This document shows positions 626 to 21,804 of a stretch of 32,430 bases of DNA, in pieces (position 1 is the first letter of the stretch; each line of letters starts with the position of its first letter). The notes under the pieces are model-generated. The model searched no databases. It was not told the origin of the DNA and saw only the letters and a list, made by a program, of their open reading frames with translations. Made by a program: the position numbers and the translations under genes. This DNA comes from Algoriphagus sp. (lineage in GTDB: Bacteria > Bacteroidota > Bacteroidia > Cytophagales > Cyclobacteriaceae): NCBI GenBank assembly GCA_021298245.1, contig JAJTDZ010000025.1:1-32430 (forward strand), written 5' to 3'.

Positions 626-2326
626 ATGAAGAACTATTTTCTCAGCACCATCCTCACGATGATGATCTTTGGATGGGTAATGCAGGTAAGCTGGGCACAA
701 AGCGATCCGAGTGGAAAGCGAAGAGTGACCAGTTCCTTTGCCATTACCAATGCTACTGTCATCAAATCCCCAGGGGATATTGGAAGCAAGGCTACTGTCC
801 TCTTTAAGGATGGGATAATAACAGGAATCGGAGCAGGACTAAGCATCCCAAAAGATGCCAAGGTTATTTCAGGAGATTCCTTATTTGTATATCCTGCATT
901 TATTGATGGAGGAAGTAATATTGGAATATCCGAACCTATGGATGATGAAAGTACTAAGGATTTTAACTCTTCCAATCCTCCAGATGAATTGGCAGGGATT
1001 ACTCCATGGAGGATGGCCACTGATTTTTATTCCAGTGCTAGTAACGAGGTAGATGAATGGAGAAAAGTAGGATTTGCCATGTCGCAAGTCATTCCAGAGG
1101 GTGGAATGCTACCCGGAAAAACAGCCTTAGTAAGCTTAGGAGATCCCAAAAACATTGCCATCATACAAGCAAATGTAGCTATGGCGGCAAATTTTAGAGG
1201 TTCTAGGGGTATGTATCCAGGCACTGTGGCTGGAGTGATGGCCAAGTTTAGAGACGTGTACCAAAACAGCATCTTAGCCTTAGAACATGAAAAATTGTTT
1301 GCCTCGGTTGCTGGAGTAAAACGTCCCCAAACTACCCCTACTCAGCTGGCTATGGCACCTGTAGTCCAAAAGCAACTCCCTATTCTTTTCACTGCCAACT
1401 CGGAATTAGAAGCTAGACGGGCCATCTCCTTACAAAAGGAACTGGGATTTAAGCTTATCCTTACAGGCTTAGAAAATTACGAGTCGGTCATTGATTTGAT
1501 CAAAAGCTCTGGCACTTCGGTGATGATAAAATTGCAAGTTCCTGACGATAAAGCAATTAAATCTCAGAAAGAAGAAGGAGTCACCGAAGCCACCAAGGCG
1601 CAGTATGCCAGAGTAAAAGAAGCTTACGATCAGTCCTTAAAGCAAGCTGCTAACCTAGAAAAGGCAGGCGTATCCTTTGGATTTAGTACCCTAGATACCA
1701 AAGCTTCAAACGTACACAAAGCCCTTTCCACCATGATTGCCAATGGCTTAAGTGAAAAAGCAGCCTTGGCTGCATTAACCACAAATCCTGCTTCCGTCTT
1801 AGGCATTTCTAGAATTGCTGGAACCCTTGAAAAAGGAAAGTTGGCCAACCTCATCCTTACTACGGAACCTTTATTTAAAGAATCTTCCCAAATCAAACAT
1901 GTCATCGTAGATGGTTATGTGTTTGACTATGAAGTGAAGAAAAAATCAAATTCAGCTCCTAACTCTTCTGCTACACCAGAAAATTCGGAGAACTCGGTAG
2001 AAGGAGTATGGGATTACGTTTCTGAAACTCCTGCAGGAAGTTCAGGAGGAGAAATAACCATCAAGAAAGAAAATGGTGTGTTGGGAGGAAGTATTAGCTA
2101 CGACGATCCTGCAGGATCTGGAAAAGCAAGTGCCCCCATCAAAAATGTAACGGTAACGGGCAAGAATCTAAAATTTGAATTTGACGTTTCGGCAGGCGGA
2201 ATGAGTTTTACGGTAACTGTATCAGGAGAAGTCAACGGAAAATCCATGGAAGGTACCTTATCCTTGCCTCAAATGGGTTCATTTCCTTTCAATGCCACAC
2301 TTTCTTCACCTAGCCAACTTAACTAA
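626..2326 (+). CDS. Exported amidohydrolase-family protein with degenerate metal site and C-terminal beta domain
   Basis: This is a 566-residue exported protein. An N-terminal signal peptide ends near VSWA-QSD (about residue 25). The amidohydrolase (imidazolonepropionase/prolidase-like) fold is recognisable from the N-terminal small-domain pattern (NATVIKSPGD, DGIITGIG, YPAFIDGG) and the C-terminal pattern ALAALTTNPASVLGI and GTLEKGKLANLILT. The HxH motif expected after the IDGG position is replaced by GGSNIGISE. The two later metal-binding histidines, seen in the neighbour at 2329, are also absent (ILFTANSELEAR and LILTGLENYE). A normal hydrolytic metal site is therefore unlikely. Residues ~455-566 form an extra beta-rich domain (GVWDYVSETPAG, GGEITIKKENG) after a Ser/Asn-rich linker. 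The stop is 2 bp before the next ATG, so the two genes are surely one operon. It may act as a non-catalytic partner of the middle paralogue; that is inference. Confidence 0.85.
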   Translation: MKNYFLSTILTMMIFGWVMQVSWAQSDPSGKRRVTSSFAITNATVIKSPGDIGSKATVLFKDGIITGIGAGLSIPKDAKVISGDSLFVYPAFIDGGSNIGISEPMDDESTKDFNSSNPPDELAGITPWRMATDFYSSASNEVDEWRKVGFAMSQVIPEGGMLPGKTALVSLGDPKNIAIIQANVAMAANFRGSRGMYPGTVAGVMAKFRDVYQNSILALEHEKLFASVAGVKRPQTTPTQLAMAPVVQKQLPILFTANSELEARRAISLQKELGFKLILTGLENYESVIDLIKSSGTSVMIKLQVPDDKAIKSQKEEGVTEATKAQYARVKEAYDQSLKQAANLEKAGVSFGFSTLDTKASNVHKALSTMIANGLSEKAALAALTTNPASVLGISRIAGTLEKGKLANLILTTEPLFKESSQIKHVIVDGYVFDYEVKKKSNSAPNSSATPENSENSVEGVWDYVSETPAGSSGGEITIKKENGVLGGSISYDDPAGSGKASAPIKNVTVTGKNLKFEFDVSAGGMSFTVTVSGEVNGKSMEGTLSLPQMGSFPFNATLSSPSQLN

Positions 2327-2328
2327 TC

Positions 2329-3720
2329 ATGAAAAAGTTATTCTACCTTCTTCTAGCGTTTTTTGGACTGGGATGTAATTTTTCCCAAGCCCAAGTTCAA
2401 AAAGGAAGCGTTTTGATCAAAAATGCTACCGTGCTGACCGTAACCAAAGGCAATTTAGAATCTGCCGATGTATTGGTCCAAAATGGGATCATCACCCAAA
2501 TTGGAAAAAATATTACTGCTCCTACTGGTGTACAAGCAATTGATGCCACAGGGAAATACCTCATGCCAGGGATTATAGATGCTCACTCCCACGTGGCCTT
2601 GGATGTAGTCAACGAAGCCTCTGCACCTATCACTTCGGAAGTTCGAATGAAAGACGTAGTTAATCCCTTTGAAATAGGGATTTACAGGGCCTTGGCAGGT
2701 GGAGTCACCGTCTCTCATGCCATGCATGGATCGGCCAATGTGGTTGGAGGTCAAAATGCCACCCTAAAACACCGATGGGGCGCAAAAGACCCTGCAGACA
2801 TCATCATGCAAGATGCTCCGAGAACCATCAAATTTGCTTTAGGAGAAAACCCAACTAGGGTTCATGGCAGAGGAAATGGGATACAACCCCGATCCAGAAT
2901 GGGAGTGGAAGCAGTGATAAGAAATGGGTTTAATGAGGCCCTTCAATACAAAAAGGCTTGGGAAACGTATGCCGCTGCAAAAAATACCAAAGGAAATACC
3001 CTTACTCCTCCAGCCTACAACGAAAGACTGCAGACGCTAGCCGATATCCTAGATGGAAAGATTATTATTCATTGCCATTCCTACCGAGCCGATGAAATCT
3101 ACATGCTTATCAACGTGGCAAAGGATTTTAATATCAAAAAATTAGTTTTCCAGCATACCAACGAAGGATTTAAAGTTGCCCCAGAAATTGCAGAGTACAC
3201 CATGGGAGCCTCTGTTTTTGCCGACTGGTGGGCTTACAAAATGGAAGTATATTATTCTACCGCTTTCAATGCAGCTATCCTTCAAAGAAACGGAGCCATT
3301 ACTTCTATCAACTCGGATTCTGCCGAACTTATCCGCCACTTGTACCATGAGGCTGCAAAAACTCAGCGTTACGGTGGATTGACCGACGACGAAGCCTTGG
3401 CCATGATCACCATCAATCCTGCCAAGCAACTGGGTATTGAGGACAAGGTAGGTTCTATTGAGGTAGGCAAGCAAGCGGACTTGGTCATTTTTGATAGCCA
3501 TCCCCTATCCTCCTATGCCGTACCACAAATGACTTTCGTAGATGGAATAAAGTACTTTGATGTTGTAGCAGACAAAGACGATCAGCGCCAACTGGTAAGT
3601 GCTACCGAAATGGTAGAACCTATCTTTTTGCGCGCCAATGAAGAAGCACACCGTTGTATGCAAGATGTAGAAATCTTTTTAGATGCATTTGATGTGGCCT
3701 TTTTGAAAGAAAAACACTAA
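2329..3720 (+). CDS. Exported metal-dependent amidohydrolase (imidazolonepropionase/prolidase-like)
   Basis: This 463-residue protein belongs to the amidohydrolase superfamily (COG1228-like), whose members hydrolyse C-N bonds of cyclic amides or Xaa-Pro-type dipeptides. The substrate here is unknown. The signal peptide ends near SQAQVQ (about residue 22), placing it in the periplasm. Visible metal ligands are H86 and H88 (GIIDAHSH), H248/H250 (IIHCHSY), H276 (VFQHTNEG) and D330 (INSDSAE), a complete set. The C-terminal DDEALAMITINPAKQLGI and GSIEVGKQADLVIFD motifs are typical. It is the only one of three tandem paralogues with the full ligand set. It starts 2 bp after the upstream gene and ends 24 bp before the next, so they are probably co-transcribed. 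Confidence 0.92.
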   Translation: MKKLFYLLLAFFGLGCNFSQAQVQKGSVLIKNATVLTVTKGNLESADVLVQNGIITQIGKNITAPTGVQAIDATGKYLMPGIIDAHSHVALDVVNEASAPITSEVRMKDVVNPFEIGIYRALAGGVTVSHAMHGSANVVGGQNATLKHRWGAKDPADIIMQDAPRTIKFALGENPTRVHGRGNGIQPRSRMGVEAVIRNGFNEALQYKKAWETYAAAKNTKGNTLTPPAYNERLQTLADILDGKIIIHCHSYRADEIYMLINVAKDFNIKKLVFQHTNEGFKVAPEIAEYTMGASVFADWWAYKMEVYYSTAFNAAILQRNGAITSINSDSAELIRHLYHEAAKTQRYGGLTDDEALAMITINPAKQLGIEDKVGSIEVGKQADLVIFDSHPLSSYAVPQMTFVDGIKYFDVVADKDDQRQLVSATEMVEPIFLRANEEAHRCMQDVEIFLDAFDVAFLKEKH

Positions 3721-3744
3721 TCACCCCGAAAATTCAACATACGT

Positions 3745-5046
3745 ATGAACCGAATACTAGTATTATTTTGTATGACCTGGATAGCCCTTCTACCAAGCGT
3801 GGGAATGGCTCAAATAGACGGGGAATTTGTAAAACCTCGAACAGGGAAGTTTCTCCTAAAAAATGCAACCGTAGTGACCGTGACCAAGGGGACGCTGTCC
3901 AATGCTTCTGTTTTGTTAGAAAATGGAAAAATTATTGGGGTCGGTGCATCTCTTCCTTCTGAAGGAGCTGAAATTATAGACTGCTCTGGCCTATTTATTT
4001 ATCCTGGGATGATCGATGGAGGTACCCGATTGGGCTTGGTAGAGGTAAGTTCTGTTCCGGAAACGGTAGACTACTCCGATGTAGGCAACGTAACCCCTAA
4101 CATGCAGGCACTCACCACAGTCAACCCCAATTCGGAGGCCATTGGAGTTACCCGTGTTTCAGGAGTAACTACCGTATTGACGGTGCCATCTGGAGGTTTG
4201 TTTCCCGGTACGGCTGCTCTGATCAACTTAAATGGGTATACCCCAGATCAAATGTATGGAGGTTTTAAGGCCGTAGCCATGACTTTCCCAAGTTCTGGAA
4301 GAAGAGGACGATTTGATAGAAGATCAGAAGAAGATATCAAAGAAGATGGAGAAAAAGCGTTGAAAGAAGCAAATGAGATATGGGACAATGCAAAAAGCTA
4401 TCTGGAATTAAAGAAGTCTGGTGCTGAACTAAGCTACTTCCCTGAAATGGAGCAGTTATCCAAAGTATTATCTGGAGAACTTCCCCTACTCATAGAAGTA
4501 AATGCTGCATCAGATATCCTCAGTGCTATCCAATGGGTAGAAGGAAAGAATATCAAGGTCATATTTACAGGTGTAGCTGAAGGATGGCGCGTGGCCGAAC
4601 AAATTGCAAAAGCAAAAATTCCTGTAGTTACAGGACCCGTGCAAGACCTCCCTACCCGACAATCGGATAGATACGATACCCCTTATGCCAATGCAGGCAA
4701 ACTTGCAAAAGCAGGGGTAAAAGTGGCCCTGAGAACCGATGAAGAAGAGAATGTCAGAAATCTTCCTTTTCATGCAGCCTTTGCAGCAGCTTATGGATTA
4801 GGTAAAGAAGAAGCCTGGAAAGCTGTAACCATCAATCCGGCAGAAATTTTCGGAGTTGCGGATCAGTATGGATCGGTAGAAGTGGGAAAAAAGGCCAACC
4901 TCATCGTGTCTACTGGAGATCCATTCGAAACACGGTCTCAGATTCTTCACGTATTTATTGATGGGTATAGAATTCCATTGTCAAACCGCCACATTCGTTT
5001 GTATCAGGAATTTTTGGAGAGATCTCCTGGTTTAAAGGCCAATTGA
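3745..5046 (+). CDS. Exported amidohydrolase-family protein with degenerate metal site
   Basis: This is the third amidohydrolase paralogue of the run, 433 residues, with a signal peptide ending near VGMAQIDG (about residue 23). The small domain (NATVVTVTKGTLSNASVLL) closely resembles the same part of the gene at 2329. The C-terminal end (WKAVTINPAEIFGV, GSVEVGKKANLIVS) keeps the family pattern. The metal-binding positions are lost: HxH is replaced by GGTRLGL after MID, and the later histidines by VNAASD and IFTGVAEGW. Only the distal Asp (RTDEEEN) seems kept. A strong terminator at 5052-5085 follows, marking the end of the three-gene operon. Role unknown; a structural partner or binding protein is one possibility. 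Confidence 0.87.
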   Translation: MNRILVLFCMTWIALLPSVGMAQIDGEFVKPRTGKFLLKNATVVTVTKGTLSNASVLLENGKIIGVGASLPSEGAEIIDCSGLFIYPGMIDGGTRLGLVEVSSVPETVDYSDVGNVTPNMQALTTVNPNSEAIGVTRVSGVTTVLTVPSGGLFPGTAALINLNGYTPDQMYGGFKAVAMTFPSSGRRGRFDRRSEEDIKEDGEKALKEANEIWDNAKSYLELKKSGAELSYFPEMEQLSKVLSGELPLLIEVNAASDILSAIQWVEGKNIKVIFTGVAEGWRVAEQIAKAKIPVVTGPVQDLPTRQSDRYDTPYANAGKLAKAGVKVALRTDEEENVRNLPFHAAFAAAYGLGKEEAWKAVTINPAEIFGVADQYGSVEVGKKANLIVSTGDPFETRSQILHVFIDGYRIPLSNRHIRLYQEFLERSPGLKAN

Positions 5047-5051
5047 TACCC

Positions 5052-5085
5052 AAGGGCCATAGAAAAACTCTATGGCCTTTTTTTT
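5052..5085 (+). terminator. Rho-independent terminator of the amidohydrolase operon
   Basis: GGCCATAG (5055-5062) pairs perfectly with CTATGGCC (5070-5077) across a 7-nt A-rich loop, and eight T's follow directly. A's at 5052-5053 can extend the stem into the T-run. It sits 6 bp after the stop codon at 5046 and separates the amidohydrolase run from the peptidase gene. Confidence 0.92.
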
Positions 5086-5122
5086 AATACCTGTTGCTTC
5101 ACCCTATACATTTCATTCCCTT

Positions 5123-7225
5123 ATGAAGAAAAGTTTTCTTATCCTAATCGCTTCTACCCTCCTTTCATTGGAAGGACTCGCGCAGCAAGACGGTTTTTTT
5201 GCTTCCCAATTGCAGGCACAAAAAAAATTTGAGAATGATTTTCTCCAAGCCGTCAAACCGGAGCGCTTTAAAGTTCATCTCGCTGAACTCACAAAAAATC
5301 CCCACATCGCAGGTACTCCAGAAAACGAACTGGTAAAAGACTACATGGTGCAAATCATGTCCCAAGCAGGCATGGACGTAAAGGTATGGCCTTACGATGT
5401 CTACCTTCCCAACCATCCGGGTACCTCCGAGTTAGAGGTAATATCCCCAGTTAAGCTTACCTTATCTCAAAAAGAAGGAGCACTACCCGAAGATCCATTT
5501 TCCGCCGATCCTAGACTCCATCTAGGTTTCAATGCCTTTTCGGGAAGCGGAGATGTCACCGCCGAAGTGGTGTATGTCAATTATGGCACACGGGAAGATT
5601 TCATGAAGCTCGTAGAAATGGGGGTGCCTTTGGAAGGGAAAATAGCCATTGCACGCTATGGAGGTAATTTTAGGGGGTACAAAGCCAAGTATGCGGAGCA
5701 GCACGGGATGGTGGGTTTGGTCGTCTTTACAGACCCCAAAGACTCTGGATTCACTCGAGGCGAGGTATACCCCAAAGGACCATTTTACAACGAAACTACC
5801 ATCCAACGCGGTTCCATGCTTACCTTGGATTTTACAGGTGACCCCCTGACACCCAATCGCCCTGCCCTTCCCTTGGATGGTCCAGTAAAGATTAAGCGTG
5901 ACGATCCTGCTACAGTAGACTTTCACACCATTCCAGTGACGCCCATTGGTTATGGCGCGGCAAAAGAAATTCTGAGTAGAATGAAAGGGGAAGATGTGCC
6001 GGCCACTTGGCAAGGGGGATTGCCTTTTCCTTACAAAATTACAGGTGGACCTGAACTGAAGGTGCGGGTCATGGTGGATCAGAAGCCTGACTTTATCCGA
6101 GCCAATAATGTGGTAGGCACCTTCATTGGAAAAGATCATCCAGACGAATGGATCATTTTGGGTAGTCACTACGATGCCTGGTCTTTCGGCGCTACGGATC
6201 CAAATTCCGGTACGGCCATGTTGCTTACCTTTGCTGAGGCCTTGGGGGAATTGTATAAAAATGGACAAAAACCTTCCCGTTCGATTTTAATTGGACATTG
6301 GGATGCCGAAGAGCAAGGCGTGATTGGATCTACCGAATGGGTGGAGCACCTCAAGGAAGAACTTGGCGCCAAGGCCATTTCCTACATGAACTTTGACGGA
6401 GGCGTGTCGGGTCGCAACTTTGGCGCCTCTGCGGCTCCTACTCTAAAGAAATTGATCATTGACGCCTCCAAAGAAGTTATCTATCCTGATTCCGCTAAAA
6501 CAGTTTTTGAGATTTGGGCTGGAAAAAATGCGGAACCTGGCATTGGAAATTTGGGCGGTGGTTCTGATCACATTGCATTCTACATGCATGTGGGAATCCC
6601 TTCTCTAAGTGGAGGTTCAGGTGGGCAAACCGCCTACCACTCCAACTACGATAATTTTTACTATTACTCTAAATTTTCCGACCCAAGCTTCAAAATGGGT
6701 GGTGCAGTAGCACAACTCTTCGGATTGGTAGCTCTTCGCCAAGCAAATGCCACGGTGATTCCCTACGATGTGCCTCGCTACGCAAAGGATTTAAAAGGCC
6801 ACTTTGCTCAAGCGGTGGCCAACGTCAAGGGTATGGATTCCAATTTCAGTGGATTTGATCAGGTAGAAGCTGCGTTGAAAGAGTTGGAAGCTCGATCCGA
6901 GGAATACCAAAATGCCCTTAAAAACGCCATGGCATCTGAAAAACTTTCGGCAGCAAAATTGAAAAAAATCAATACCGAATTGATAGGATTGGAAAAAAGT
7001 TGGATCGATCCCAAGGGGATGTATTACGGAGACTGGTACAAGTCTCTTTATGTCTGTAACGACCCCTTTTCTGGCTACGCCTCCTGGATCCTTCCTGGTA
7101 TACAGTACGAAGTGGCTATTCGAAATACCACACGCTTGGAAGAATGGGATACCCGATATGCTAAGGCCATTCTGGACTTAAGTAAAAAAATTGATAAGCT
7201 GAGTAAGCTGTTTGTAGCTCCTTGA
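5123..7225 (+). CDS. Exported M28-family metallopeptidase (glutamate carboxypeptidase II / transferrin-receptor-like)
   Basis: This 700-residue zinc exopeptidase resembles glutamate carboxypeptidase II. The domains in order are a signal peptide (MKKSFLILIASTLLSLEGLA), a protease-associated insert (~residues 120-260), the M28 catalytic domain (~330-560) and a C-terminal helical dimerisation-like domain. Di-zinc ligands are visible: His and Asp in GSHYDAWSFGATDPNSG, the Glu pair in WDAEEQGV, Asp in MNFDGGVSG and a late His in YHSNYDN. I chose the ATG at 5123. An in-frame ATG at 5072 lies inside the terminator hairpin, and starting there would add 17 residues before a perfect signal peptide. It probably trims peptides in the periplasm. 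Its place next to exported amidohydrolases suggests shared peptide or amide scavenging, but it has its own transcript. Confidence 0.93.
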   Translation: MKKSFLILIASTLLSLEGLAQQDGFFASQLQAQKKFENDFLQAVKPERFKVHLAELTKNPHIAGTPENELVKDYMVQIMSQAGMDVKVWPYDVYLPNHPGTSELEVISPVKLTLSQKEGALPEDPFSADPRLHLGFNAFSGSGDVTAEVVYVNYGTREDFMKLVEMGVPLEGKIAIARYGGNFRGYKAKYAEQHGMVGLVVFTDPKDSGFTRGEVYPKGPFYNETTIQRGSMLTLDFTGDPLTPNRPALPLDGPVKIKRDDPATVDFHTIPVTPIGYGAAKEILSRMKGEDVPATWQGGLPFPYKITGGPELKVRVMVDQKPDFIRANNVVGTFIGKDHPDEWIILGSHYDAWSFGATDPNSGTAMLLTFAEALGELYKNGQKPSRSILIGHWDAEEQGVIGSTEWVEHLKEELGAKAISYMNFDGGVSGRNFGASAAPTLKKLIIDASKEVIYPDSAKTVFEIWAGKNAEPGIGNLGGGSDHIAFYMHVGIPSLSGGSGGQTAYHSNYDNFYYYSKFSDPSFKMGGAVAQLFGLVALRQANATVIPYDVPRYAKDLKGHFAQAVANVKGMDSNFSGFDQVEAALKELEARSEEYQNALKNAMASEKLSAAKLKKINTELIGLEKSWIDPKGMYYGDWYKSLYVCNDPFSGYASWILPGIQYEVAIRNTTRLEEWDTRYAKAILDLSKKIDKLSKLFVAP

Positions 7226-8436: not shown

Positions 8437-8444
8437 CAAAAGTA
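8437..8444 (-). promoter_or_regulatory. Candidate Bacteroidota -7 box (TACTTTTG) for the rRNA methyltransferase
   Basis: On the minus strand TACTTTTG matches TAnnTTTG exactly and ends 4 nt before the ATG at 8433. In the rnpB promoter of this window the RNA begins 4 nt after the same box, so the transcript here would begin at or next to the start codon. I see no clear -33 TTTG at normal spacing. Confidence 0.45.
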
Positions 8445-8486
8445 CGAATAGGAAAGGGATTATGACCGTCCTTACAAATTTGATTC

Positions 8487-8508
8487 CCTAGGCTTGCAAC
8501 AAGCTAGG
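8487..8508. repeat. Palindrome between methyltransferase and DUF1080 gene, operator candidate
   Basis: CCTA-G-GCTTG (8487-8496) and CAAGC-TAGG (8500-8508) form a 9-bp inverted repeat with one bulged G and a CAA centre. No T-run follows. It lies 46 bp upstream of the first gene of the carbohydrate block, where a regulator site would be expected. Function is inferred from position only. Confidence 0.4.
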
Positions 8509-8553
8509 TGCAGCTAAAGGATTTTTGTATCTTGAATTTCAATTTCTAACCCC

Positions 8554-9966
8554 ATGTTACGCATAGGTATGCAAATAACCCGAAATTCACCTTTGGTTAA
8601 GAGAATCATCTGTAGTGCTCTTTTCTTTTTCTTCCTGCTTCAGCATTCCACGTTTGCCCAAACCTCTTCCTGGAGCTCCCTTTTTAATGGAAAAGACCTA
8701 AGCGGATGGAAAGCAGTGGCTGGAAAAGCATCCTTCGAGGTGAAAGAGGGAGCTATCGAAGGTTCCTCCGTGTATGGAACAGGCAATACCTTTCTGATCA
8801 CCGATCAAATGTATTCGGACTTCATTTTGGAGCTTGAACTTAAAATCAATGACTTGAGCTCCAACAGTGGGGTGATGGTCAGAGGACAATTTGATCCCAG
8901 CAAGAGGAATGGAGAAGGCTTGGTCCTAGGCTATCAAGTAGAAGCTGATCCCACGCCCAGAGCCTGGTCAGGAGGAATTTACGACGAAGCAAGAAGAGGA
9001 TGGTTTTATCCCCTGGATTTGAATCCAAAAGCTAAATCAGCCTTTAAACTTGGAGAATGGAATACCTACAGGATAGAGGCCATTGGCAATACCATCAAAA
9101 CCTGGATCAATGGACAGGAAGTCGCCTATTTTATGGACGATATGGATGCCCAAGGATTTATCGGACTTCAAGTGCACAGCATTCAAAACAAATCCGAGGA
9201 AGGAAGAAAAACATCATTCAGAAATATTCGAATTCAAACTGAAAACCTTCGCCCTACGCCCTTCCGTGGAGAGGTATTTGTGGTCAGTACCCTGAGCAAT
9301 CAACTTTCCGAGGAGGAAAAAAATCAAGGCTGGAAACTTTTGTTTGATGGAAAAACAAGTGCAGGATGGATAGGTGCCTACAAAGAGACTTTTCCAGAAA
9401 AGGGATGGATCGTACAGGATGGGATCTTGACCATCCAAAAGTCGGACGGTAGCGAGGCCACTACTTACGGAGACATCGTCAGCAAAGAACTTTTCAGTGC
9501 TTTTGATTTGGCCTTTGATTTTAAACTTACAGAAGGGGCCAATAGCGGGGTGAAATATTTTGTCACACTTTCCGAAGGAAACAAAGGATCTGCTATAGGA
9601 CTTGAATACCAACTTTTAGACGATGTCCTACATCCCGATGCCAAAATGGGTAGGGATGGCAACCGTACCTTAGCTTCCTTGTATGACTTGATCAAGGCAG
9701 ATAAACAACCTCGCTTTGTAAGAAAAATAGGAGAATGGAATCAAGGAAGGATTCTGGTACATCCCAACAACAAGGTCGAACACTTCATCAATGGTGTCAA
9801 AGTACTGGAATATACCCGAGGATCCCAGGAGTTTAGAGACTTGGTAGCCATAAGCAAATATGCCATCTGGACCAATTTTGGCGAAGCTCCTCAGGGACGT
9901 ATCCTACTCCAAGACCATGGAAACGAGGTGAGTTTTAAAAATATAAAAATTAAGCCTTTAAAGTAA
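8554..9966 (+). CDS. Exported protein with two DUF1080 (3-keto-disaccharide hydrolase, LamG-like) domains
   Basis: This 470-residue exported protein has a signal peptide ending near HSTFAQ (~residue 36). Two copies of the DUF1080 domain follow, each a concanavalin-like beta sandwich. Copy 1 begins at LFNGKDLSGW (~43) and copy 2 at LFDGKTSAGW (~262). Each copy contains the family signatures NSGVMVRGQF or NSGVKYFV, GEWN(T/Q) and (I/F)INGQ/INGVK. Members of this family cleave glycosides already oxidised to the 3-keto form by a Gfo/Idh/MocA enzyme, and such an enzyme follows 24 bp downstream. Either ATG (8554 or 8569) could be the start. The leader that follows looks like a signal peptide in both cases. 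Substrate unknown; the glucuronate genes downstream make a glucuronide or similar glycoside plausible. Confidence 0.88.
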   Translation: MLRIGMQITRNSPLVKRIICSALFFFFLLQHSTFAQTSSWSSLFNGKDLSGWKAVAGKASFEVKEGAIEGSSVYGTGNTFLITDQMYSDFILELELKINDLSSNSGVMVRGQFDPSKRNGEGLVLGYQVEADPTPRAWSGGIYDEARRGWFYPLDLNPKAKSAFKLGEWNTYRIEAIGNTIKTWINGQEVAYFMDDMDAQGFIGLQVHSIQNKSEEGRKTSFRNIRIQTENLRPTPFRGEVFVVSTLSNQLSEEEKNQGWKLLFDGKTSAGWIGAYKETFPEKGWIVQDGILTIQKSDGSEATTYGDIVSKELFSAFDLAFDFKLTEGANSGVKYFVTLSEGNKGSAIGLEYQLLDDVLHPDAKMGRDGNRTLASLYDLIKADKQPRFVRKIGEWNQGRILVHPNNKVEHFINGVKVLEYTRGSQEFRDLVAISKYAIWTNFGEAPQGRILLQDHGNEVSFKNIKIKPLK

Positions 9967-9990
9967 TTTCACCATAAAACTTTGGAAAGC

Positions 9991-11340
9991 ATGTCCAAAT
10001 CAAATAGAAGATCATTTATAAAGAAAAGTGCAGCGATGACCCTAGGCCTATCTGCTCTAGGAGCGGTGGGATTTTCCCCCAAATCATACGCACGAATCTT
10101 GGGAGCAAACGACCGACTAAACGTGGCCATTGCAGGCTTGGGGCGTCGATTGGGTGCATTTTACGAGCCTATAGGATTGAAGAGCAGTAACGTCAATTTG
10201 CTTTACCTCTGCGATGCCATGCAGTCTCAAATGCCCAAGGCAGCGAAAAACTTTGAAAAATGGATTGATTACCAACCCAAGCAAGAGCAAAATATCTTCA
10301 AAGTATTGGATGACAAGGAGGTAGATGTACTCATCAATGCCACCCCTGATCACTGGCATGCTCCAGGCACCTGGCTAGCCCTAGAAAGGGGAAAACACGT
10401 GTATGTGGAGAAGCCATGTTCCCACAACCCCAGAGAAGGCGAAGTCTTGGTAGCTCTCCAAAAAAAGTACAATAAGGTGGTACAGATGGGCAATCAGCAG
10501 CGTTCAGCACCCGAAAGCCGGGAAGTTATTGCAGCCATCCATCAAGGAGCCATAGGGAAAGCATACTTGGCTAAGGCATTTTACTCCAATGCTAGAGGGG
10601 CGGTACCTAATCCCATTCCCCAAGCACCACCCGAGGGTTTGGATTGGGAACTGTTTCAAGGTCCTGCTCCCCGAAAACCCTACATGCACGATACCTGGGA
10701 CTACAATTGGCATTGGTACGGATGGGATTATGGAACTGGGGAAACAGGCAACAATGCTACCCACGAATTGGACGTGGCACGCTGGGCTTTGCAAGTAGAT
10801 TTTCCTCAACAGGTATCCGTGGTCGCTGGAAAAATGCATTTTCCAGAGGATGGTTGGACCATGTACGACACCATGGATGCCACCTTTACCTTTGAAAATG
10901 GACTCAGCATCCAATGGGATGGGAAAAGCAGAAACAACTATAAAACGTACGGTTCAGACAGAGGCACCATCATCTATGGTACAGAAGGGACTGTCTATGT
11001 GGATAGAAATGGATACCGCATGATGGACCGCAGTGGCAAAGAAATCAAATCAAATAAAGCCAAAACCCAAGAAGCAGGTACTGCCTTGGGCGGAGGGGGA
11101 GACATGAGTACCCTACACATTGTCAATTTCTTCAATGCAGTACGAGGACTCGAAAAACAAAATTCTACCATAGAAGAAGGGGCTACCTCTACCCTTCTTT
11201 GCCACTTGGCCAATATCAGCAGCCGTACAGGAGAAACCTTACGTTGTGATCCAAAAAATGGACATATCCTAAACTCCAAAAAAGCCATGGCCCTATGGAG
11301 TAGAGCGTACGAAAAAGGTTGGGCGCCTCCCGGCTTATAA
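9991..11340 (+). CDS. Tat-exported Gfo/Idh/MocA-family oxidoreductase
   Basis: This NAD(P)-dependent sugar oxidoreductase has 449 residues from the ATG at 9991; a TTG three codons upstream is less likely. A twin-arginine signal (NRRSFIKKSAAMTLGLSAL) predicts export of the folded, cofactor-loaded protein. The Rossmann motif AIAGLGRRLGAF follows (~residue 46), then TPDHWHAPGTW and the catalytic VEKPC motif (~140), where the Lys is the family's active-site residue. The C-terminal substrate-binding domain includes ETGNNATHELDVARWAL, carrying the expected active-site His. Family members oxidise a sugar hydroxyl, often C3. Next to a DUF1080 protein, this suggests oxidation of glycosides before cleavage. 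The two genes sit 24 bp apart and are probably co-transcribed. The substrate cannot be read from sequence. Confidence 0.92.
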   Translation: MSKSNRRSFIKKSAAMTLGLSALGAVGFSPKSYARILGANDRLNVAIAGLGRRLGAFYEPIGLKSSNVNLLYLCDAMQSQMPKAAKNFEKWIDYQPKQEQNIFKVLDDKEVDVLINATPDHWHAPGTWLALERGKHVYVEKPCSHNPREGEVLVALQKKYNKVVQMGNQQRSAPESREVIAAIHQGAIGKAYLAKAFYSNARGAVPNPIPQAPPEGLDWELFQGPAPRKPYMHDTWDYNWHWYGWDYGTGETGNNATHELDVARWALQVDFPQQVSVVAGKMHFPEDGWTMYDTMDATFTFENGLSIQWDGKSRNNYKTYGSDRGTIIYGTEGTVYVDRNGYRMMDRSGKEIKSNKAKTQEAGTALGGGGDMSTLHIVNFFNAVRGLEKQNSTIEEGATSTLLCHLANISSRTGETLRCDPKNGHILNSKKAMALWSRAYEKGWAPPGL

Positions 11341-11435
11341 ACTTTTGACCCCGTCACACCAAAACCATAACAGGGTAATAATTGATAAATGCTACCCAGT
11401 AAAACGATAACACAAAGCATTCCTCCTTTTTGTAC

Positions 11436-12880
11436 ATGACTTCTTTAGCTCAGCAGGTTCCTTTCCTTTCCGATCATTTTTTGTTGCAAAATGAGTACTC
11501 CAAATTGCTTTACCACGAGTATGCCAAAACACTCCCTATTGTAGATTACCACAACCACCTGCCTCCAGCAGAAATTGCCAGCAATAGGAAGTTTGAAAAT
11601 ATCACTGCCCTCTGGTTGGCAGGGGATCACTACAAATGGAGAGCCATGCGAACCCTAGGCTTGGAAGAGCAATACATCACCGGATCAGCTAGTGATCCAA
11701 TAAAATTTGAAAAATGGGCCTATACCCTGCCCTTTACCCTGAGAAACCCCTTGTACCACTGGAGCCACATGGAATTGCAGCGTTACTTTGGTATTTCAGA
11801 CCTGCTTAGTCCTTCCAATGCCTCTGCGATTTATGTTCAGACCACTGAGGCACTTCAAGAGGAAAGTTTTCGTACCCGAGGACTTTTGCAGAAAATGAAG
11901 GTAGAAGTGGTCTGCACCACGGACGATCCTACAGACTCTTTGGCACATCATGTAGACTTTTACCGACAAGGGGATTCCATGCACATGTATCCTACCTTTC
12001 GTCCTGACAAGCCTTGGGTCTTCAAGAGCCATCTTCCTATCGCTCCTACCTAGAAAAATTAGAACAGGCGGTAGGTTTTGCCATCACCTCCTTAGACACA
12101 CTACTGGAAGCCCTATCCAATCGAATAGAATATTTCCATCATCGGGGCTGTAGAGTGGCAGATCATGGATTAGAAAAACTTTATTTTTCTGAAAACAAAG
12201 GTTTTTCAAGCGATCAAATTTTTAAGAAGATGCTACGTGGAGAAGTGGCTACGGGGGCTGAACAAGAGTATTTTACTTTTTCAATACTTCGTCACCTGTG
12301 TAGAATTTATCATGCCAAAGGCTGGGTGCAGCAATTCCACCTTGGTGCCCTTCGCAATACCAACAGCCGCATGTTGGGCTCTTTGGGCCCAGATACAGGA
12401 TTTGATTCTATTGGAGATTTTGACCAAGCCTTGAATTTGGCCAGATTTTTAAATGACCTGGATGCAAGCAACCAATTGACCAAAACCATCATTTACAACC
12501 TAAATCCTAGAGACAACGAGGTCTTTGCCACCATGATTGGGAATTTCAACGATGGATCTGTCAAAGGAAAAATACAATACGGCTCGGGCTGGTGGTATTT
12601 GGATCAAAAAGATGGCATGGAAAAGCAATTGAATACCCTTTCCAACATGGGTCTCCTAAGTTGTTTTGTAGGAATGCTTACTGACTCCAGAAGCTTTCTT
12701 TCTTTCCCAAGACACGAATATTTTCGAAGGATTTTATGCCAGTTGTTTGGCCAAGAAGTAGCGCGAGGAGAATTGCCCTGGGATGAAAAATGGATTGGAA
12801 AAATTATCCAAGACATCTGCTACTACAATGCAAAGAATTATTTCGAGTTTAATTCCAATCACTACAGCAAAAGCCTATGA
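11436..12880 (+). pseudogene. uxaC: Glucuronate (uronate) isomerase UxaC, frameshifted
   Basis: UxaC converts D-glucuronate to D-fructuronate, or D-galacturonate to D-tagaturonate, the first step of hexuronate catabolism. Two frames together cover the whole ~481-residue family length. The 5' part (11436 to ~12011) has the metal-binding motif VDYHNHLPPAEI, the pattern WRAMRTLG and ends in TFRPDK. The 3' part (from ~12012) carries ALGLQEPSSY, HHRGCRVADHG, QFHLGALRNTNSRM and GFDSIGD. One missing G at about 12011 (AAG-CC where AAG-GCC restores DKALGL) explains the break; nothing else is damaged. The 3' end overlaps the SDR start by 4 bp (ATGA), so translation of the operon appears coupled. It may be a sequencing error or a real mutation. 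ATG at 11436 is preferred to TTG at 11430. Confidence 0.88.
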
Positions 12881-13698
12881 ATTCCTCTCCATCCTTTTCC
12901 TTGAAGGGAAAGAAAATCTTATTTTCTGGCGCAACGGGTGTTTTGGGTAAAGAAATGGCTCTTTATTTGGCCCAGCAGGAAGCCAGCGTTTTGCTTTTGG
13001 GAAGAAACCCAAAAAAAATAAACGATTTGAGAGACTTGATTAGCAGTGCAGGAGGTAAGGCATGGGCCTATTGTGCCGATGTCACCGATGAGGAGGCCTT
13101 GCAAAAAGTAGCCCAGATCATTGCTTCCCAACACGAATCACTGGACACCTTGATCAATGCAGCAGGCGGAAACATGCCAGGAGCCGTGATCCGACCTGAG
13201 CAAACATTTTTGGATTTGGATAGCCAGGCCTTGAGGGAAGTGCTAGACCTGAATTACTTGGGTACTGTTTTTCCGATCAAGGTATTTCTTCCACTACTGC
13301 TTAAAAATAAAAAGGGTACAATTCTGAATATCAGTTCCATGGCTGCCACCCGACCCATGACTCGCGTGATGGGCTATGCTTCAGCCAAAGCTGCTATTGA
13401 TAATTTGACCAAGTGGCTAGCCGTGGAGCTCACAAGCAAATATGGACCAAGTTTTCGGGTGAATGCCTTGGCTCCAGGTTTTTTCTTGACCGAACAAAAT
13501 CGAACCCTACTCACCGAAACCGATGGAAGCTTAACCCAAAGAGGGCAGCAAATCATCAGCCATACCCCGATGAATCGATTTGGACAGCCTGAAGATTTAT
13601 TAGGTGCCTTACATTGGCTATGCAGCGATGCTTCATCCTTTGTGACCGGCACTATCGTCACAGTAGATGGGGGATTTAGTGCCTATGCTGGAGTTTAA
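12877..13698 (+). CDS. SDR-family oxidoreductase, probable D-mannonate (fructuronate) oxidoreductase
   Basis: This 273-residue short-chain dehydrogenase has the NAD(P) motif SGATGVLGKEMA (~residue 18), NAAGGNMPG, the catalytic Ser (LNISSMAA) and the YASAKAA Tyr/Lys pair (~166-170), followed by APGFFLTEQN. Its place between uxaC and uxuA points to reduction of D-fructuronate to D-mannonate, a role known for SDR proteins in Gram-positive uronate operons in place of the classical long-chain UxuB. Its start overlaps the uxaC stop by 4 bp. The function is inferred from context as much as from sequence; a gluconate 5-dehydrogenase-like activity is the main alternative. Confidence 0.85.
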   Translation: MNSSPSFSLKGKKILFSGATGVLGKEMALYLAQQEASVLLLGRNPKKINDLRDLISSAGGKAWAYCADVTDEEALQKVAQIIASQHESLDTLINAAGGNMPGAVIRPEQTFLDLDSQALREVLDLNYLGTVFPIKVFLPLLLKNKKGTILNISSMAATRPMTRVMGYASAKAAIDNLTKWLAVELTSKYGPSFRVNALAPGFFLTEQNRTLLTETDGSLTQRGQQIISHTPMNRFGQPEDLLGALHWLCSDASSFVTGTIVTVDGGFSAYAGV

Positions 13699-13736
13699 AA
13701 ATTAGTGATTGAATTCAACCCTCAAATCAAATTCCC

Positions 13737-14924
13737 ATGACCTATAGAATGGAACAGACCATGCGCTGGTATGGACCAAAAGATCCAGTAAGCCTCAAAG
13801 ATATCGCCCAATGCGGTGCCACAGGGGTAGTTACTGCCCTCCACCACATCCCCAATGGAGCAGTATGGTCCCGAGAAGAAATTAGTTTGAGAAAAAATGA
13901 AATTGAAAAAGCGGGACTTACCTGGTCTGTGGTAGAATCTGTTCCGGTACACGAACAAATAAAAACGCGTTCAGGGGCTTACCTTCAACTTATTGAAAAC
14001 TACAAGCAAACCTTGAGAAACCTAGCAGCTGAGGGTATTTTCACCGTTTGCTACAACTTCATGCCGATTTTAGATTGGACCAGGACCAACTTAGAATACG
14101 AACTTCCCAATGGAGCTAAGGCCTTGCTGTACGAAAAGAAAGCGGTTATAGCCTTTGATCTTTTTATTCTTCAACGGCCTGAAGCACACTTGGAGTACTC
14201 CGCAGAAGAAATAGCTGCCACAGAAGCCTACTACCAAAGTTTAGGTCCAGAATCAAAACAAATGATTTTGGACAATATCCTCAAAGGACTCCCCGGTTCA
14301 GAAATTGGCTATACCTTGGAGGAGTTTAAAGAAATGTTGAAAACCTATGATGGGATTGATGCCGAACAACTTGCAAGGCATTTGCGACTTTTTTTAGATG
14401 CCATTACCCCCGTAGCAGAAGAAGTGGGCTGCTACTTGTGTATCCACCCGGATGATCCTCCCTTTTCTTTGTACGGCTTACCCAGAGTGGTCAGCACTGC
14501 ATCAGATGCCAGACGAATTCTTAGCCAAACCCCAAGCCAACACAATGGGCTGACCTTTTGTACGGGAAGTTATGGCGTTCGGGAAGACAATGATCTACCT
14601 GCTATGGTACGGGAATTTGGAGAACGCATTCATTTTCTCCATCTGCGAAGTACAAGAAGAGATGCGGAAGGAAATTTTTACGAAGACAACCACCTAGAAG
14701 GCAATGTAGACATGGTAGCTGTCATACAGGAAGTACTCCGCTGGCAAGAAATACGAAAAAAGAGAATTCCCATGCGCCCAGATCATGGACACCAACTCCT
14801 CGACGACCTACATAAGAAGAGCGCTAACCCAGGATATACGGCCATTGGCAGGCTAAAGGGTTTGGCGGAGCTCAGAGGGGTAGAAGAAGCCTTGCTTTGG
14901 ATGAGAGATAAAAAGAAATCTTAA
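13737..14924 (+). CDS. uxuA: Mannonate dehydratase UxuA
   Basis: UxuA dehydrates D-mannonate to 2-keto-3-deoxy-D-gluconate using a divalent metal (Fe or Mn). The protein has 395 residues, the normal size. Family signatures are clear: [57 protein letters not shown] near the N-terminus, and [25 protein letters not shown] and [10 protein letters not shown] at the metal/active site. The start may be the ATG at 13737 or the one at 13746 (MEQTMRW), which matches family starts better. It lies 38 bp after the SDR gene and closes the glucuronate module. KDG kinase and aldolase are not in the window. Confidence 0.96.
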
Positions 14925-18901: not shown

Positions 18902-18932
18902 AAAAAGACCACTTGCAGTGGTCTTTTTTTTT
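18900..18932. terminator. Bidirectional terminator between TerC and arginine decarboxylase genes
   Basis: AAAGACCACT (18904-18913) pairs with AGTGGTCTTT (18917-18926) over a TGC loop, flanked by an A-run upstream and a nine-T run downstream. It starts at the TerC stop codon and reaches the stop codon of the converging gene at 18931. Confidence 0.93.
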
Positions 18933-20319
18933 AATACCCTAAGGTTTTCAACATACTTTCTTCCTTTTGATCGGAAGCAAATAACCAGTGCTTTACCTTT
19001 CCATGTTCATCCCGATCTATCAATACGTGCTTCGGCGCTGGAATCAAGCAATGCTGAATGCCACCATAGCCTCCTAAAGATTCTTGGTAAGCCCCGGTAT
19101 GGAAAAAGCCTATGTATTGCTGCTTCTTTTCCACCAACTTTGGCAAATAAATATTGAATTGGTGAGCCTCTGAATTGTAGTAGTCCATGCTATCGCAGGT
19201 CAATCCCCCCAAGGAAATATTGTGGTAATCTTCGTCCCAGTTGTTGACGGCCAACATGATGTATTTTTGATTTAGTCCCCAGCTATCTGGCAACTGGGTG
19301 ATAAAGGATCCGTCGATCATGTACCACAATTCCTTATCGTTTTGAAGTTTTTCCTCCAAGATAGAGTACAAGACAGCACCACTCTCCCCTACAGTGTAAC
19401 TTCCGAATTCGGTAAAAATATTGGGTTCGGTGGTATTGTTTTTGGCACACATCCACTTGATATTTTTTACGATTTGATCGGCCATGTATTGGTAATCGTA
19501 ATCGAAAAATACGTTGGTTTTGATGGGCCATCCTCCGCCAATATCCATGGCGTCCAAACTAGGAGCAACCCTTTTGAGCTCTACATATTTTTGAATAAAA
19601 CGGGTCAATTCGGACCAATAATATGCCGTATCCTTGATGCCAGAATTAATAAAAAAATGAAGCATTTTCAGACTTACCTGAGGATTGCCTTTAATTTTTT
19701 CTTCATACAAGGAAATGATATCGTTGTAGCGAACCCCTAATCGAGAAGTATAGAAACCAAACTTGGGTTCCTCATCCGCAGCGATTCGAATCCCTACTTG
19801 GAAAGGGACCTTGACATGCTCCAAATAGTAATCGATTTCCGTCAGGTTATCCAAAATGGGTATACAATTGACAAAACCATCGTTGAGCAACTCGGATATG
19901 TACTGCTTGTATTTTTCCCGCTTAAAGCCATTGCAAATGATATAGGTATCCTTTCGGATCTTTCCTTTGGCATACAGGCTTCTCACCAAAGGAATATCAA
20001 AGGTGGAGGAAGTCTCAATGTGGATATCGTTTTTCAGGGCCTCGTCCAGGACAAAGCTAAAGTGAGAAGATTTGGTACAATAGCAATAGGTATACTTACC
20101 CTTGTATTGGTGGGTTTGCATGGCGTTTGAAAAGTACTTTTTGGCCTGCTGTATACTTTCAGAAATTTTTGGCAAATAGGTCAACTTCAATGGCGTCCCA
20201 TAGGTCTCAATGATTTCCATCAGATTGACTCCATTGAAAAAAAGATTGTTGTCTTCAACGGTAAATTCCTTGGTAGGAAAATCAAAAGTCTGCTGGATCA
20301 AATCAATGTATCTATTCAT
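18931..20319 (-). CDS. speA: Biosynthetic arginine decarboxylase (PLP, fold III)
   Basis: This enzyme decarboxylates arginine to agmatine, the first step of one polyamine route. It has 462 residues from the ATG at 20319. The PLP-lysine motif is CYCTKSSHF (Lys ~83), in the position of the YAVKAN motif of related decarboxylases. IGGGWPI, EFGSYTVGESGAV and LTCDSMDYY (the Cys-Asp region that completes the active site) follow in order. HTGAYQESLGGYGG near the C-terminus is typical of this family. An upstream TTG (20355) would lie inside the candidate -7 box AATTTTTG (minus, 20353-20360), so the ATG is preferred. It is shorter than the ~630-residue E. coli SpeA but has the size of the Bacteroidota form. 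It diverges from an arginase, so two arginine-consuming enzymes sit back to back. Confidence 0.9.
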   Translation of the reverse strand: MNRYIDLIQQTFDFPTKEFTVEDNNLFFNGVNLMEIIETYGTPLKLTYLPKISESIQQAKKYFSNAMQTHQYKGKYTYCYCTKSSHFSFVLDEALKNDIHIETSSTFDIPLVRSLYAKGKIRKDTYIICNGFKREKYKQYISELLNDGFVNCIPILDNLTEIDYYLEHVKVPFQVGIRIAADEEPKFGFYTSRLGVRYNDIISLYEEKIKGNPQVSLKMLHFFINSGIKDTAYYWSELTRFIQKYVELKRVAPSLDAMDIGGGWPIKTNVFFDYDYQYMADQIVKNIKWMCAKNNTTEPNIFTEFGSYTVGESGAVLYSILEEKLQNDKELWYMIDGSFITQLPDSWGLNQKYIMLAVNNWDEDYHNISLGGLTCDSMDYYNSEAHQFNIYLPKLVEKKQQYIGFFHTGAYQESLGGYGGIQHCLIPAPKHVLIDRDEHGKVKHWLFASDQKEESMLKTLGY

Positions 20320-20579
20320 GTACCAATCAGGTTTAATTTTAAGATAAGGGTGCAAAAATTGCGCTTTTATTCACAGTTATCAAATGATTAGGAGATAAAA
20401 ACCCTGAGAATTTCCATTTTAAAAAAATTATACAACTCCTTTTCCTTAAATGAAGCAGGTCCACATCCATTTTTGCTTATTTTTTAATCGAGAAATGTAG
20501 TCGAATTTTATAGATTAAAGGGTAAGAATTGATCCCAATTGGCTATTTTTACCTCTACCAACCCAAGTATATCTTAGCC

Positions 20580-21530
20580 ATGAGAAAAATCTCCCTTGTA
20601 GAGGTACGTTCTGAAATCGCTGCTGGCACCCGAGGAGCTAGCCTTGGGGTAGATGCCCTTAAAATTGCAAGTTTAGACAAAAAATCAAATTTTTTCTCCC
20701 GGTTTGAACCCATAACTGTTACGGATGCCAATAGCTTTCTTTGGAAGGGCAACAAGCATCCCTTTGCCAATTACATTGACGGAGTGTACCAAGTAATCAA
20801 AAACGTTTATTCTACCATAGAGTCCCTTCGGCTGGAGAAGAAGTTTCCCATCGTCTTAGCTGGTGACCATAGCACCGCAGCCGGTACCATCATGGGCATC
20901 AAAGGAGCCCATCCTGACAAACGACTAGGCGTGATCTGGATAGATGCCCATGCGGATTTACATACCCCCTATACCACCCCTTCAGGCAACATGCACGGGA
21001 TGCCTTTGGCCATCGCTGCTCAACTGGATAATTTGGCCTGCAAGCAAAATCAACCTTCTTCTGAAACGATTTCCTACTGGGAAAGAATAAAAAAAATTGG
21101 TGGGGATTTTCCAAAAATTGACCTAAAAGACATCGTATACCTTTCCTTACGAGACACGGAAGAAGCTGAAAATTTTCTAATCGCTTCGCACGAGATTTCA
21201 ACCTTTCGAACCGAGGATATCAGGGAACTCGGAGTCCAAGAAGTTGCAAGAAGAACCCTTGAATTACTAAAAGATTGCGATCAGCTCTACATTTCCTTTG
21301 ATGTGGATAGTTTGGATTCCTCCATATCCAAAGGAACTGGGACGCCGGTGCCCCATGGATTGAGCGTATCGGAAGCCATTGCCTTAAATGCAGAATTGAT
21401 CAAAGACAAGCGGGTATGTTGTTGGGAAATCGTAGAAGTAAATCCAACTCTAGATACAGAAAATACCACGGCTGAAATCGCCTTTGAAGTTTTAGAAATC
21501 ACCACGCAGTCCTTGGTTCTACATTTCTAG
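20580..21530 (+). CDS. rocF: Arginase (ureohydrolase family)
   Basis: This 316-residue manganese ureohydrolase would split arginine into ornithine and urea. Metal-binding motifs are visible: LAGDHSTA (~94), WIDAHADLHTP (~120) and SFDVDSLDSS (~239). The SGNMHGMPLA segment after DAHAD matches the SGNxHG substrate loop of arginases and not that of agmatinases. The end reads EIVEVNPTLD, as in arginases. I use the ATG at 20580; a TTG at 20529 would add a poor hydrophobic N-terminus. Its neighbour speA makes agmatine, so agmatinase should be considered, but motifs favour arginase. It may share the 20320-20579 divergent control region with speA. Confidence 0.82.
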   Translation: MRKISLVEVRSEIAAGTRGASLGVDALKIASLDKKSNFFSRFEPITVTDANSFLWKGNKHPFANYIDGVYQVIKNVYSTIESLRLEKKFPIVLAGDHSTAAGTIMGIKGAHPDKRLGVIWIDAHADLHTPYTTPSGNMHGMPLAIAAQLDNLACKQNQPSSETISYWERIKKIGGDFPKIDLKDIVYLSLRDTEEAENFLIASHEISTFRTEDIRELGVQEVARRTLELLKDCDQLYISFDVDSLDSSISKGTGTPVPHGLSVSEAIALNAELIKDKRVCCWEIVEVNPTLDTENTTAEIAFEVLEITTQSLVLHF

Positions 21531-21679
21531 TATTTGGATTCCTTTATCTTTTGGGGCCAAGCAAACATTCAATTCAAAAATTCCTATGCGGTAAAGCTAA
21601 GAAACACCTGCGTAGAGATCCCATCAAACCACTTCTACTAAATTTAGGGGAGGGTGCTATGTATTCTTGTTGTCGGTCT

Positions 21680-21687
21680 TAACTTTG
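21680..21687 (+). promoter_or_regulatory. Candidate -7 box (TAACTTTG) for argS
   Basis: TAACTTTG matches TAnnTTTG exactly. The expected start is about 21691, which gives argS a leader of ~114 nt containing a hairpin (21720-21753). No good -33 TTTG is seen at the usual distance. Confidence 0.4.
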
Positions 21688-21719
21688 CTTTTCAATTCAG
21701 CACCTGCCTCGTGGGAAAA

Positions 21720-21753
21720 GATTCCGCTGCTTGGGCTATCCAAGCGTAGAATC
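21720..21753 (+). promoter_or_regulatory. Hairpin in the presumed argS leader
   Basis: GCTTGG (21729-21734) pairs with CCAAGC (21740-21745) over a GCTAT loop. After a small internal loop, GATTC (21720-21724) pairs with GAATC (21749-21753). No U-run follows, so it is not a classical terminator. The rest of the 274-bp gap 21531-21804 shows no gene, tRNA or repeat. Confidence 0.4.
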
Positions 21754-21804
21754 TAGGTAAAAATCCTTTCTCGAGATTCAGGTCTTTCAGATTAACTAAC
21801 AGGA

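Follow-up and report, generated by a model that had tools for sequence, protein, structure and literature searches.

A double DUF1080 protein and a Gfo/Idh/MocA oxidoreductase, a possible oxidation-first glycoside-cleaving module, are recurrently linked to uronate catabolism genes

Glycosidase modules that work by oxidation, elimination and hydration were reportedly described in 2024 by Nasseri and by Kastner, for the BT2157/BT2158 type and for AL2/AL3 of Alistipes. These modules (PDB 8tda, 8v31, 8tdf, 8tdh, 8rr2 and 9fbe) pair a Gfo/Idh dehydrogenase with a DUF1080 enzyme. Here we examine such a pair in a 32,430-nucleotide stretch of an Algoriphagus sp. contig (JAJTDZ010000025.1; hereafter the window), where genes for a double DUF1080 protein and a Gfo/Idh/MocA oxidoreductase precede the uronate catabolism genes uxaC, a short-chain dehydrogenase/reductase (SDR) gene and uxuA. 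The pair is predicted to share the Gfo/Idh fold of the described modules but differs in having two DUF1080 domains rather than one, in its link to uxaC and uxuA, and in a Gfo/Idh protein that is 22% identical to AL3.

The same double DUF1080 architecture is found in BT3469 of Bacteroides thetaiotaomicron (4jqt), at 54% identity. Its structure title reads putative glycosyl hydrolase only, and no assigned role was found in the literature searched, where the one paper naming BT3469 concerns another enzyme. The NAD-dependent sulfoquinovosidases of GH188 are Gfo/Idh-fold proteins that oxidoreductively cleave a glycoside with an acidic C6 group, and their genes lie with those that catabolize the sugar so released; unlike the present pair, they act as one protein, are described in the accessible text with no mention of DUF1080, and are inactive on nitrophenyl beta-glucuronic acid (PMC10755693). 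The levoglucosan pathway LgdA-B1-B2-C similarly spreads oxidation, elimination, hydration and reduction over several proteins, but its substrate is a neutral anhydrosugar and the accessible text makes no mention of DUF1080 (PMC7676230). In Caulobacter, lactose use is proposed to involve periplasmic 3-oxidation by LacABC followed by a DUF1080 protein, although there the dehydrogenase has three components and the substrate is a neutral disaccharide (PMC9007349). A DUF1080 enzyme has also been reported to act on xanthan (PMC10881899). The nearest hint of such a combination is a Maribacter locus that combines a Gfo/Idh protein (GH109) of unknown function, highest on arabinogalactan, with an expressed mannonate dehydratase (PMC11036162). 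No description of a DUF1080 pair combined with uronate genes was found in the literature searched, outside which lie the main subscription papers on 3-keto modules.

Linkage of the pair to uronate genes

The double DUF1080 gene (8554..9966, plus strand) is followed after 24 bases by the ATG (9991) of the Gfo/Idh gene (9991..11340, plus strand), for which a mechanical start was called at TTG 9982. Downstream on the same strand lie uxaC in two pieces, an SDR D-mannonate oxidoreductase gene with UxuB function (12877..13698; NF006132 PRK08277, 351 bits, cut-off 281) and the mannonate dehydratase gene uxuA (13737..14924; TIGR00695, 522.7 bits, cut-off 199.55), the last two passing NCBI curated cut-offs. 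Profiles placed every part of the five-gene block of the original prediction where it had been listed, with the correction that uxaC is not a single frame. Its two overlapping open reading frames (ORFs), at 11430..12053 (broken near its end) and 12014..12880, cover adjacent parts of one profile (PF02614 positions 4-188 with 272 bits and 194-464 with 382 bits), indicating a frameshift, and the frame change is also seen by tblastn with the whole protein of a related locus (L082). Elsewhere uxaC is read in one frame of 467-493 aa in the 27 other loci where a uxaC ORF was found, L082 included. No second uxaC is present in the window assembly (2.48 Mb, 96 contigs, 83% complete).

By its Gfo/Idh protein, the window genome is placed as Algoriphagus-like (Cyclobacteriaceae); the closest titled records among the matches listed are the metagenome-assembled genome K_Offshore_40m (88%) and A. 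litoralis (84%). The order rlmL, double DUF1080, Gfo/Idh, uxaC and SDR was found in all eight other same-genus genomes fetched. uxuA follows in six of these stretches, and the other two end before its position. SusC and SusD genes intervene between Gfo/Idh and uxaC in 6/8 and a divergent LacI-type gene in 7/8, labels that come from Pfam for the L043 copies and from BLAST for the remaining loci. By synteny of L042-L049, the corresponding junction in the window (11341..11429, no strand assigned) is empty, and SusC, SusD and LacI are likewise absent from L082, L049 and L084. Since the window with L082 and L049 with L084 form two separate pairs on the tree, loss or gain of this insert must have happened repeatedly. 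The uxaC frameshift in the window could be either a real lesion, a decay after loss of SusCD/LacI, or a sequencing or assembly error. The gene order is no strain accident: it is conserved in the genus, and the pair lies near uronate genes in other families, a point on which the original prediction had been staked.

Linkage of the pair to uronate genes is real, recurrent and far above chance. Across 118 Cyclobacteriaceae genomes, a Gfo/Idh orthologue (E<=1e-140) is present in 41, UxaC in 86 and both in 39 (Fisher p 3e-5). In 16 of the 41, uxaC and the Gfo/Idh gene are no more than 15 kb apart, against about 0.3 expected by chance (binomial 2e-24), and in 14 of 39 when the genus is left out (6e-21), with the reservation that p-values from these related genomes overstate independence. 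Among 80 loci from titled genomes, drawn from the matches listed, the pair has uronate genes nearby, arranged in varied orders, in Galbibacter (L095), Eudoraea (L096), Flavivirga (L099), Snuella (L110), Maribacter (L114, L117) and Flagellimonas (L154). The fullest of these, in Galbibacter, comprises SusC, SusD, the pair, a cupin, SDR, UxuA, a KduI/IolB-family protein, gluconate 5-dehydrogenase, UxaC, a PfkB kinase, KDPG aldolase and a TRAP binding protein. All 20 named genomes with a double DUF1080 pair have a UxaC match, one in pieces only.

In 395 evenly drawn Bacteroidota genomes, the double DUF1080 query matched 72 (E<=1e-80), of which 4 were one-domain only and 5 cut short. UxaC was found in 64/68 of the genomes with a double DUF1080 protein versus 75/327 of those without (p 2e-29). 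Uronate genes lie in the stretch for 8 of 60 fetched double DUF1080 contexts (L198, L211, L222, L225, L227, L242, L243, L249), a count that leaves out L250 (aldolase only) and G535 (uxaC 10.6 kb off); one of the eight, L227, has double DUF1080, UxaC and UxuA with no Gfo/Idh match.

Linkage was recounted by tblastn, scoring one Gfo/Idh match per locus in 180 loci; 26 loci gave no match reaching 200 bits, four near-copies (>=97%) were removed, and the window was added. Gfo/Idh proteins of at least 50% identity were designated class A and the remaining matches class B. Uronate genes accompany 30/56 class A loci with double DUF1080 and 1/21 without it, and 5/32 class B loci with it and 0/42 without; an earlier ORF-based count gave, in the same order, 30/55, 1/21, 3/28 and 0/41. 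In these counts the class A group with double DUF1080 is rich in Algoriphagus, stretch lengths differ and only uronate-type markers were scored. Mapped on a Gfo/Idh tree of 145 ORF-based rows, a quick tree without a mixture model and with long-branch warnings, the linked state changes 14-15 times, at least 12 of them forced by supported branches; the linkage was therefore gained or lost many times. A comparison of double DUF1080 with uronate linkage by independent pairs had no power (median p 1). The ORF calls behind the tree and the residue tables missed genes in six loci, including two from Sphingomonas (L135 and L146).

Outside Bacteroidota, these Sphingomonas loci each carry a double DUF1080 gene with a class B Gfo/Idh gene. 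In L135 (8682-11305 with 1362-3919), UxuA and a weak UxaC match lie ~5-7 kb upstream of DUF1080, and in L146 (8711-11311 with 2847-3989) UxuA lies a few kb upstream. In Spirosomataceae, several Gfo/Idh orthologues of 63-70% identity are partnered with a TIM-barrel protein (PF01261; L053:8110-8973, L056, L060, L061, L090) and not with double DUF1080, a different second module for what is apparently the same dehydrogenase. That clade comprises 13 rows, all without uronate linkage.

A profile scan found no glycoside hydrolase in the window block, as originally predicted, yet a GH2 or GH78 gene adjoins the pair in some relatives. GH78-like rhamnosidases come after the pair in Flavobacteriaceae (L099:12701-14539 and L114:11361-13628, both Pfam-tested, in a BLAST cluster of nine loci), which suggests glycans of the rhamnose-glucuronate type such as ulvan or arabinogalactan. 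Myo-inositol oxygenase (MIOX) and an SSF symporter are encoded beside the pair in Maribacter (L114:15237-16127, Pfam-tested, and L117) and Flavicella (L108:15374-16252, BLAST cluster). For 40 class A pairs from other genera, 115 of the 118 neighbours that had no label were scanned and returned 154 Pfam families, the commonest being SusD (5) and Peptidase_S9, alpha-amylase, GH28 and pectate-lyase-like families (3 each). Elsewhere in the window, positions 626-7225 hold three tandem amidohydrolase genes followed by an M28 peptidase gene with PA and TFR-dimer domains, and L082 has ORFs of like length and an M28 gene (91%) in the same order. An arginine/ornithine-decarboxylase-like gene, an arginase-family gene and the arginyl-tRNA synthetase gene lie together at 18931-23595. 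The stretch 8440-8553 was inspected by eye for a promoter, and this line was dropped.

Features of the two proteins

The double DUF1080 protein, which by eye begins with a signal peptide, matches PF06439 in two stretches (295.7 bits versus a gathering score of 26.8, E 2e-88), with domain 1 at ~aa 36-240 and domain 2 at ~aa 256-470. Over its full length the best PDB match, by sequence and by fold, is 4jqt, named BT3469 in the fold search and 54% identical over the fold match, for which the query model had a predicted template modelling score (pTM) of 0.61. Judged by sequence, only domain 2 closely resembles known 3-keto enzymes. It matches 8tda (E 8e-35 by sequence, 36% identity in the fold search) as well as 8rr2, and its predicted fold resembles the eliminase/hydratase 9fbe/8rr2; the structure titles read 3-keto-2-hydroxy-glucal hydratase and 3-keto-glycoside eliminase/hydratase. 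Domain 1 gave no match to these 3-keto structures at E 0.01 in the sequence search. The two domains are clearly different in sequence (27% identity, hhalign probability 99), and in 113/113 rows each has a Gln and a His on its last strand. These histidines, H208 in domain 1 and H455 in domain 2, align with one another and are invariant in all 113 rows. By chain-length arithmetic, H455 may correspond to H275 of the B. thetaiotaomicron lyase, whose H275N variant is hydration-deficient (PMC13273386).

The Gfo/Idh protein scores above cut-off with PF01408 (49.4 bits versus 24) and PF19051. Its leader contains a twin-arginine motif, NRRSFIKK, read by eye; the TIGR01409 signal profile matches the Flavivirga orthologue (L099) and was not listed for the window protein. 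For its model (predicted local distance difference test 89, pTM 0.87), the nearest folds are the glucoside-3-dehydrogenase AL3 (8tdf, 8tdh) and then DgpA1, with aldose-aldose oxidoreductase and NAD-dependent sulfoquinovosidases lower in the list. Numbered from TTG 9982, Lys144 and His261 are present in 145/145 Gfo/Idh rows, and we take them to be catalytic by analogy with Lys107/His193 of ArSqgA. Arg55, beside the nucleotide loop, and Arg317 are present in all 76 class A rows. Of the 69 class B rows, 52 have Cys at position 317, 11 Ser, 4 Arg and 2 Trp, and three of the four class B Arg317 rows form the separate clade of the uronate-linked Flagellimonas locus. In GH188 enzymes, the sulfonate is held by Arg166 and Lys172 (PMC10755693).

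Candidate function and alternative readings

We favor, at about even odds (probability roughly 0.5), a reading in which the two proteins form a periplasmic module that cleaves glycosides oxidation-first (non-Koshland) and serves the uronate catabolic locus. The exported Gfo/Idh protein, with bound NAD(P), would oxidize a terminal uronosyl residue at C3. Elimination of the aglycone and hydration of the resulting enone would then fall to the double DUF1080 protein, mainly to domain 2, and the 3-keto-uronate would regain its plain form through reduction by this Gfo/Idh protein or a sister of it, with the cofactor presumably recycled. After presumed transport into the cell, the uronate would pass through UxaC, SDR and UxuA to 2-keto-3-deoxygluconate. 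Described sequences of oxidation, elimination, hydration and reduction end in a plain sugar (PMC10628242, PMC7676230), an outcome that would suit an ordinary UxaC pathway downstream. The parts of this reading differ in strength. Oxidation-first cleavage by the pair is probable, given the homology of domain 2 to solved 3-keto enzymes and the AL3-like fold predicted for the Gfo/Idh protein, evidence that lends support to the 3-keto chemistry originally proposed. Uronate specificity is our best reading of the substrate and close to a coin toss, and the neutral-sugar and polysaccharide tool-kit readings discussed below share most of the remainder. Of the original prediction, the gene order and, by homology, the chemistry stand; its glucuronide substrate goes beyond these data, and a neutral sugar carried on a uronate could be the target. 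Its guess that the fused DUF1080 copies may supply two steps is likewise tentative.

Several observations weigh against the favored reading or narrow it. uxaC is broken and SusCD/LacI absent in the window genome itself. In 23 of the 41 family genomes with the Gfo/Idh orthologue uxaC is only farther off or on another contig, and in two (G288 and G290) there is none; 26/56 class A pairs have no uronate gene in the stretch read. Against the NCBI profile for the BT_2158 glycoside 3-dehydrogenase (NF058561), the Gfo/Idh protein scores 144.3 bits with a cut-off of 750, in its N-terminal part only; it may work like that family, yet by score is no member. Arg317 has weakened on recheck as a clean uronate mark: among the five uronate-linked class B pairs, L154 alone has Arg there, whereas L135, L146, L198 and L211 show Cys, and unlinked Spirosomataceae carry Arg too. 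Arg317 is perhaps a candidate acid-binding residue, of use as a mutagenesis lead and no more. A stronger proposal would be a uronosidase system that is dedicated, widespread and free of glycoside hydrolases, consisting of an exported Gfo/Idh protein, whose class A form may be recognizable by the invariant R317 close to the C6 carboxylate, and a double DUF1080 protein that splits elimination and hydration between its domains, with plain uronate passing to UxaC/UxuA or UxaE. We consider this proposal rather unlikely, having marked it down from an already tentative standing because the two uronate-linked Sphingomonas copies have Cys at 317.

The same 3-keto chemistry could instead act on a neutral sugar with a uronate aglycone, such as hexosyl- or rhamnosyl-glucuronate, and so detach the uronate on the reducing side. 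3-keto chemistry is typically broad in specificity, related solved enzymes with a stated substrate take neutral glucosides (trehalose for AL3, glucose for DgpA in the fold search), and GH78 rhamnosidases adjoin some copies; weakly against it, the 25 commonest of the 154 families in the neighbour scan include no neutral-sugar catabolic family, and GH28 and pectate-lyase-like families are present. We hold this reading to be unlikely and still a serious one. Somewhat less probable is that the pair acts on another glycan decoration as one tool of a polysaccharide kit, with separate hydrolases or lyases freeing the uronate. The unlinked class A pairs would fit such a role, as would the SusC/SusD, GH2, GH43, GH78, GH28, GH97 and alpha-amylase families near some copies and the genes that look sulfatase-like by eye. 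In Galbibacter L095 and Eudoraea L096, however, no glycoside hydrolase is among the scanned neighbours, which do include the pair and uronate genes, and the window block likewise has none.

Chance adjacency or a correlation of lifestyle alone is very improbable. Arabinose isomerase (AraA) predicts UxaC equally well (32/32 in 160 genomes) and is itself commoner with double DUF1080 (14/26 versus 18/134), so that a glycan-eating lifestyle explains part of the genome-level co-occurrence. AraA served as the lifestyle control in place of L-rhamnose isomerase, which was useless with 8/395 genomes positive. Double DUF1080 still predicts UxaC in genomes without AraA (12/12 versus 11/116), and among genomes of at least 4 Mb UxaC is found in 15/15 with it versus 22/36 without. 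Linkage is better evidence than co-occurrence, and the excess of close uxaC neighbours in Cyclobacteriaceae, repeated in different gene orders, argues against chance. Least credible is that the neighbouring pathway handles glucuronate made from myo-inositol while the pair acts on an inositol glycoside. MIOX does lie beside the pair in Maribacter L114 (PF05153, E 5e-111), and BLAST clustering puts it there in L117 and Flavicella L108 as well. Neither of the genomes tested from this genus, G000 (83% complete) and G035, has a MIOX match; 40/118 family genomes do, but a partial one in G294 is the sole match no more than 15 kb from the Gfo/Idh gene; on these grounds an inositol origin of the glucuronate at this locus was rejected.

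Oxidation-first modules are a recent discovery, and the solved enzymes encountered in this analysis have neutral glucosides or sulfoquinovose as substrates. If the favored module reading holds, its recurrent link with uronate catabolism would extend such modules to the uronic acids of algal and plant polysaccharides and would explain uronate loci that lack a glucuronidase. It also offers a testable function for the double DUF1080 protein BT3469, the structure of which (4jqt) was released in 2013.

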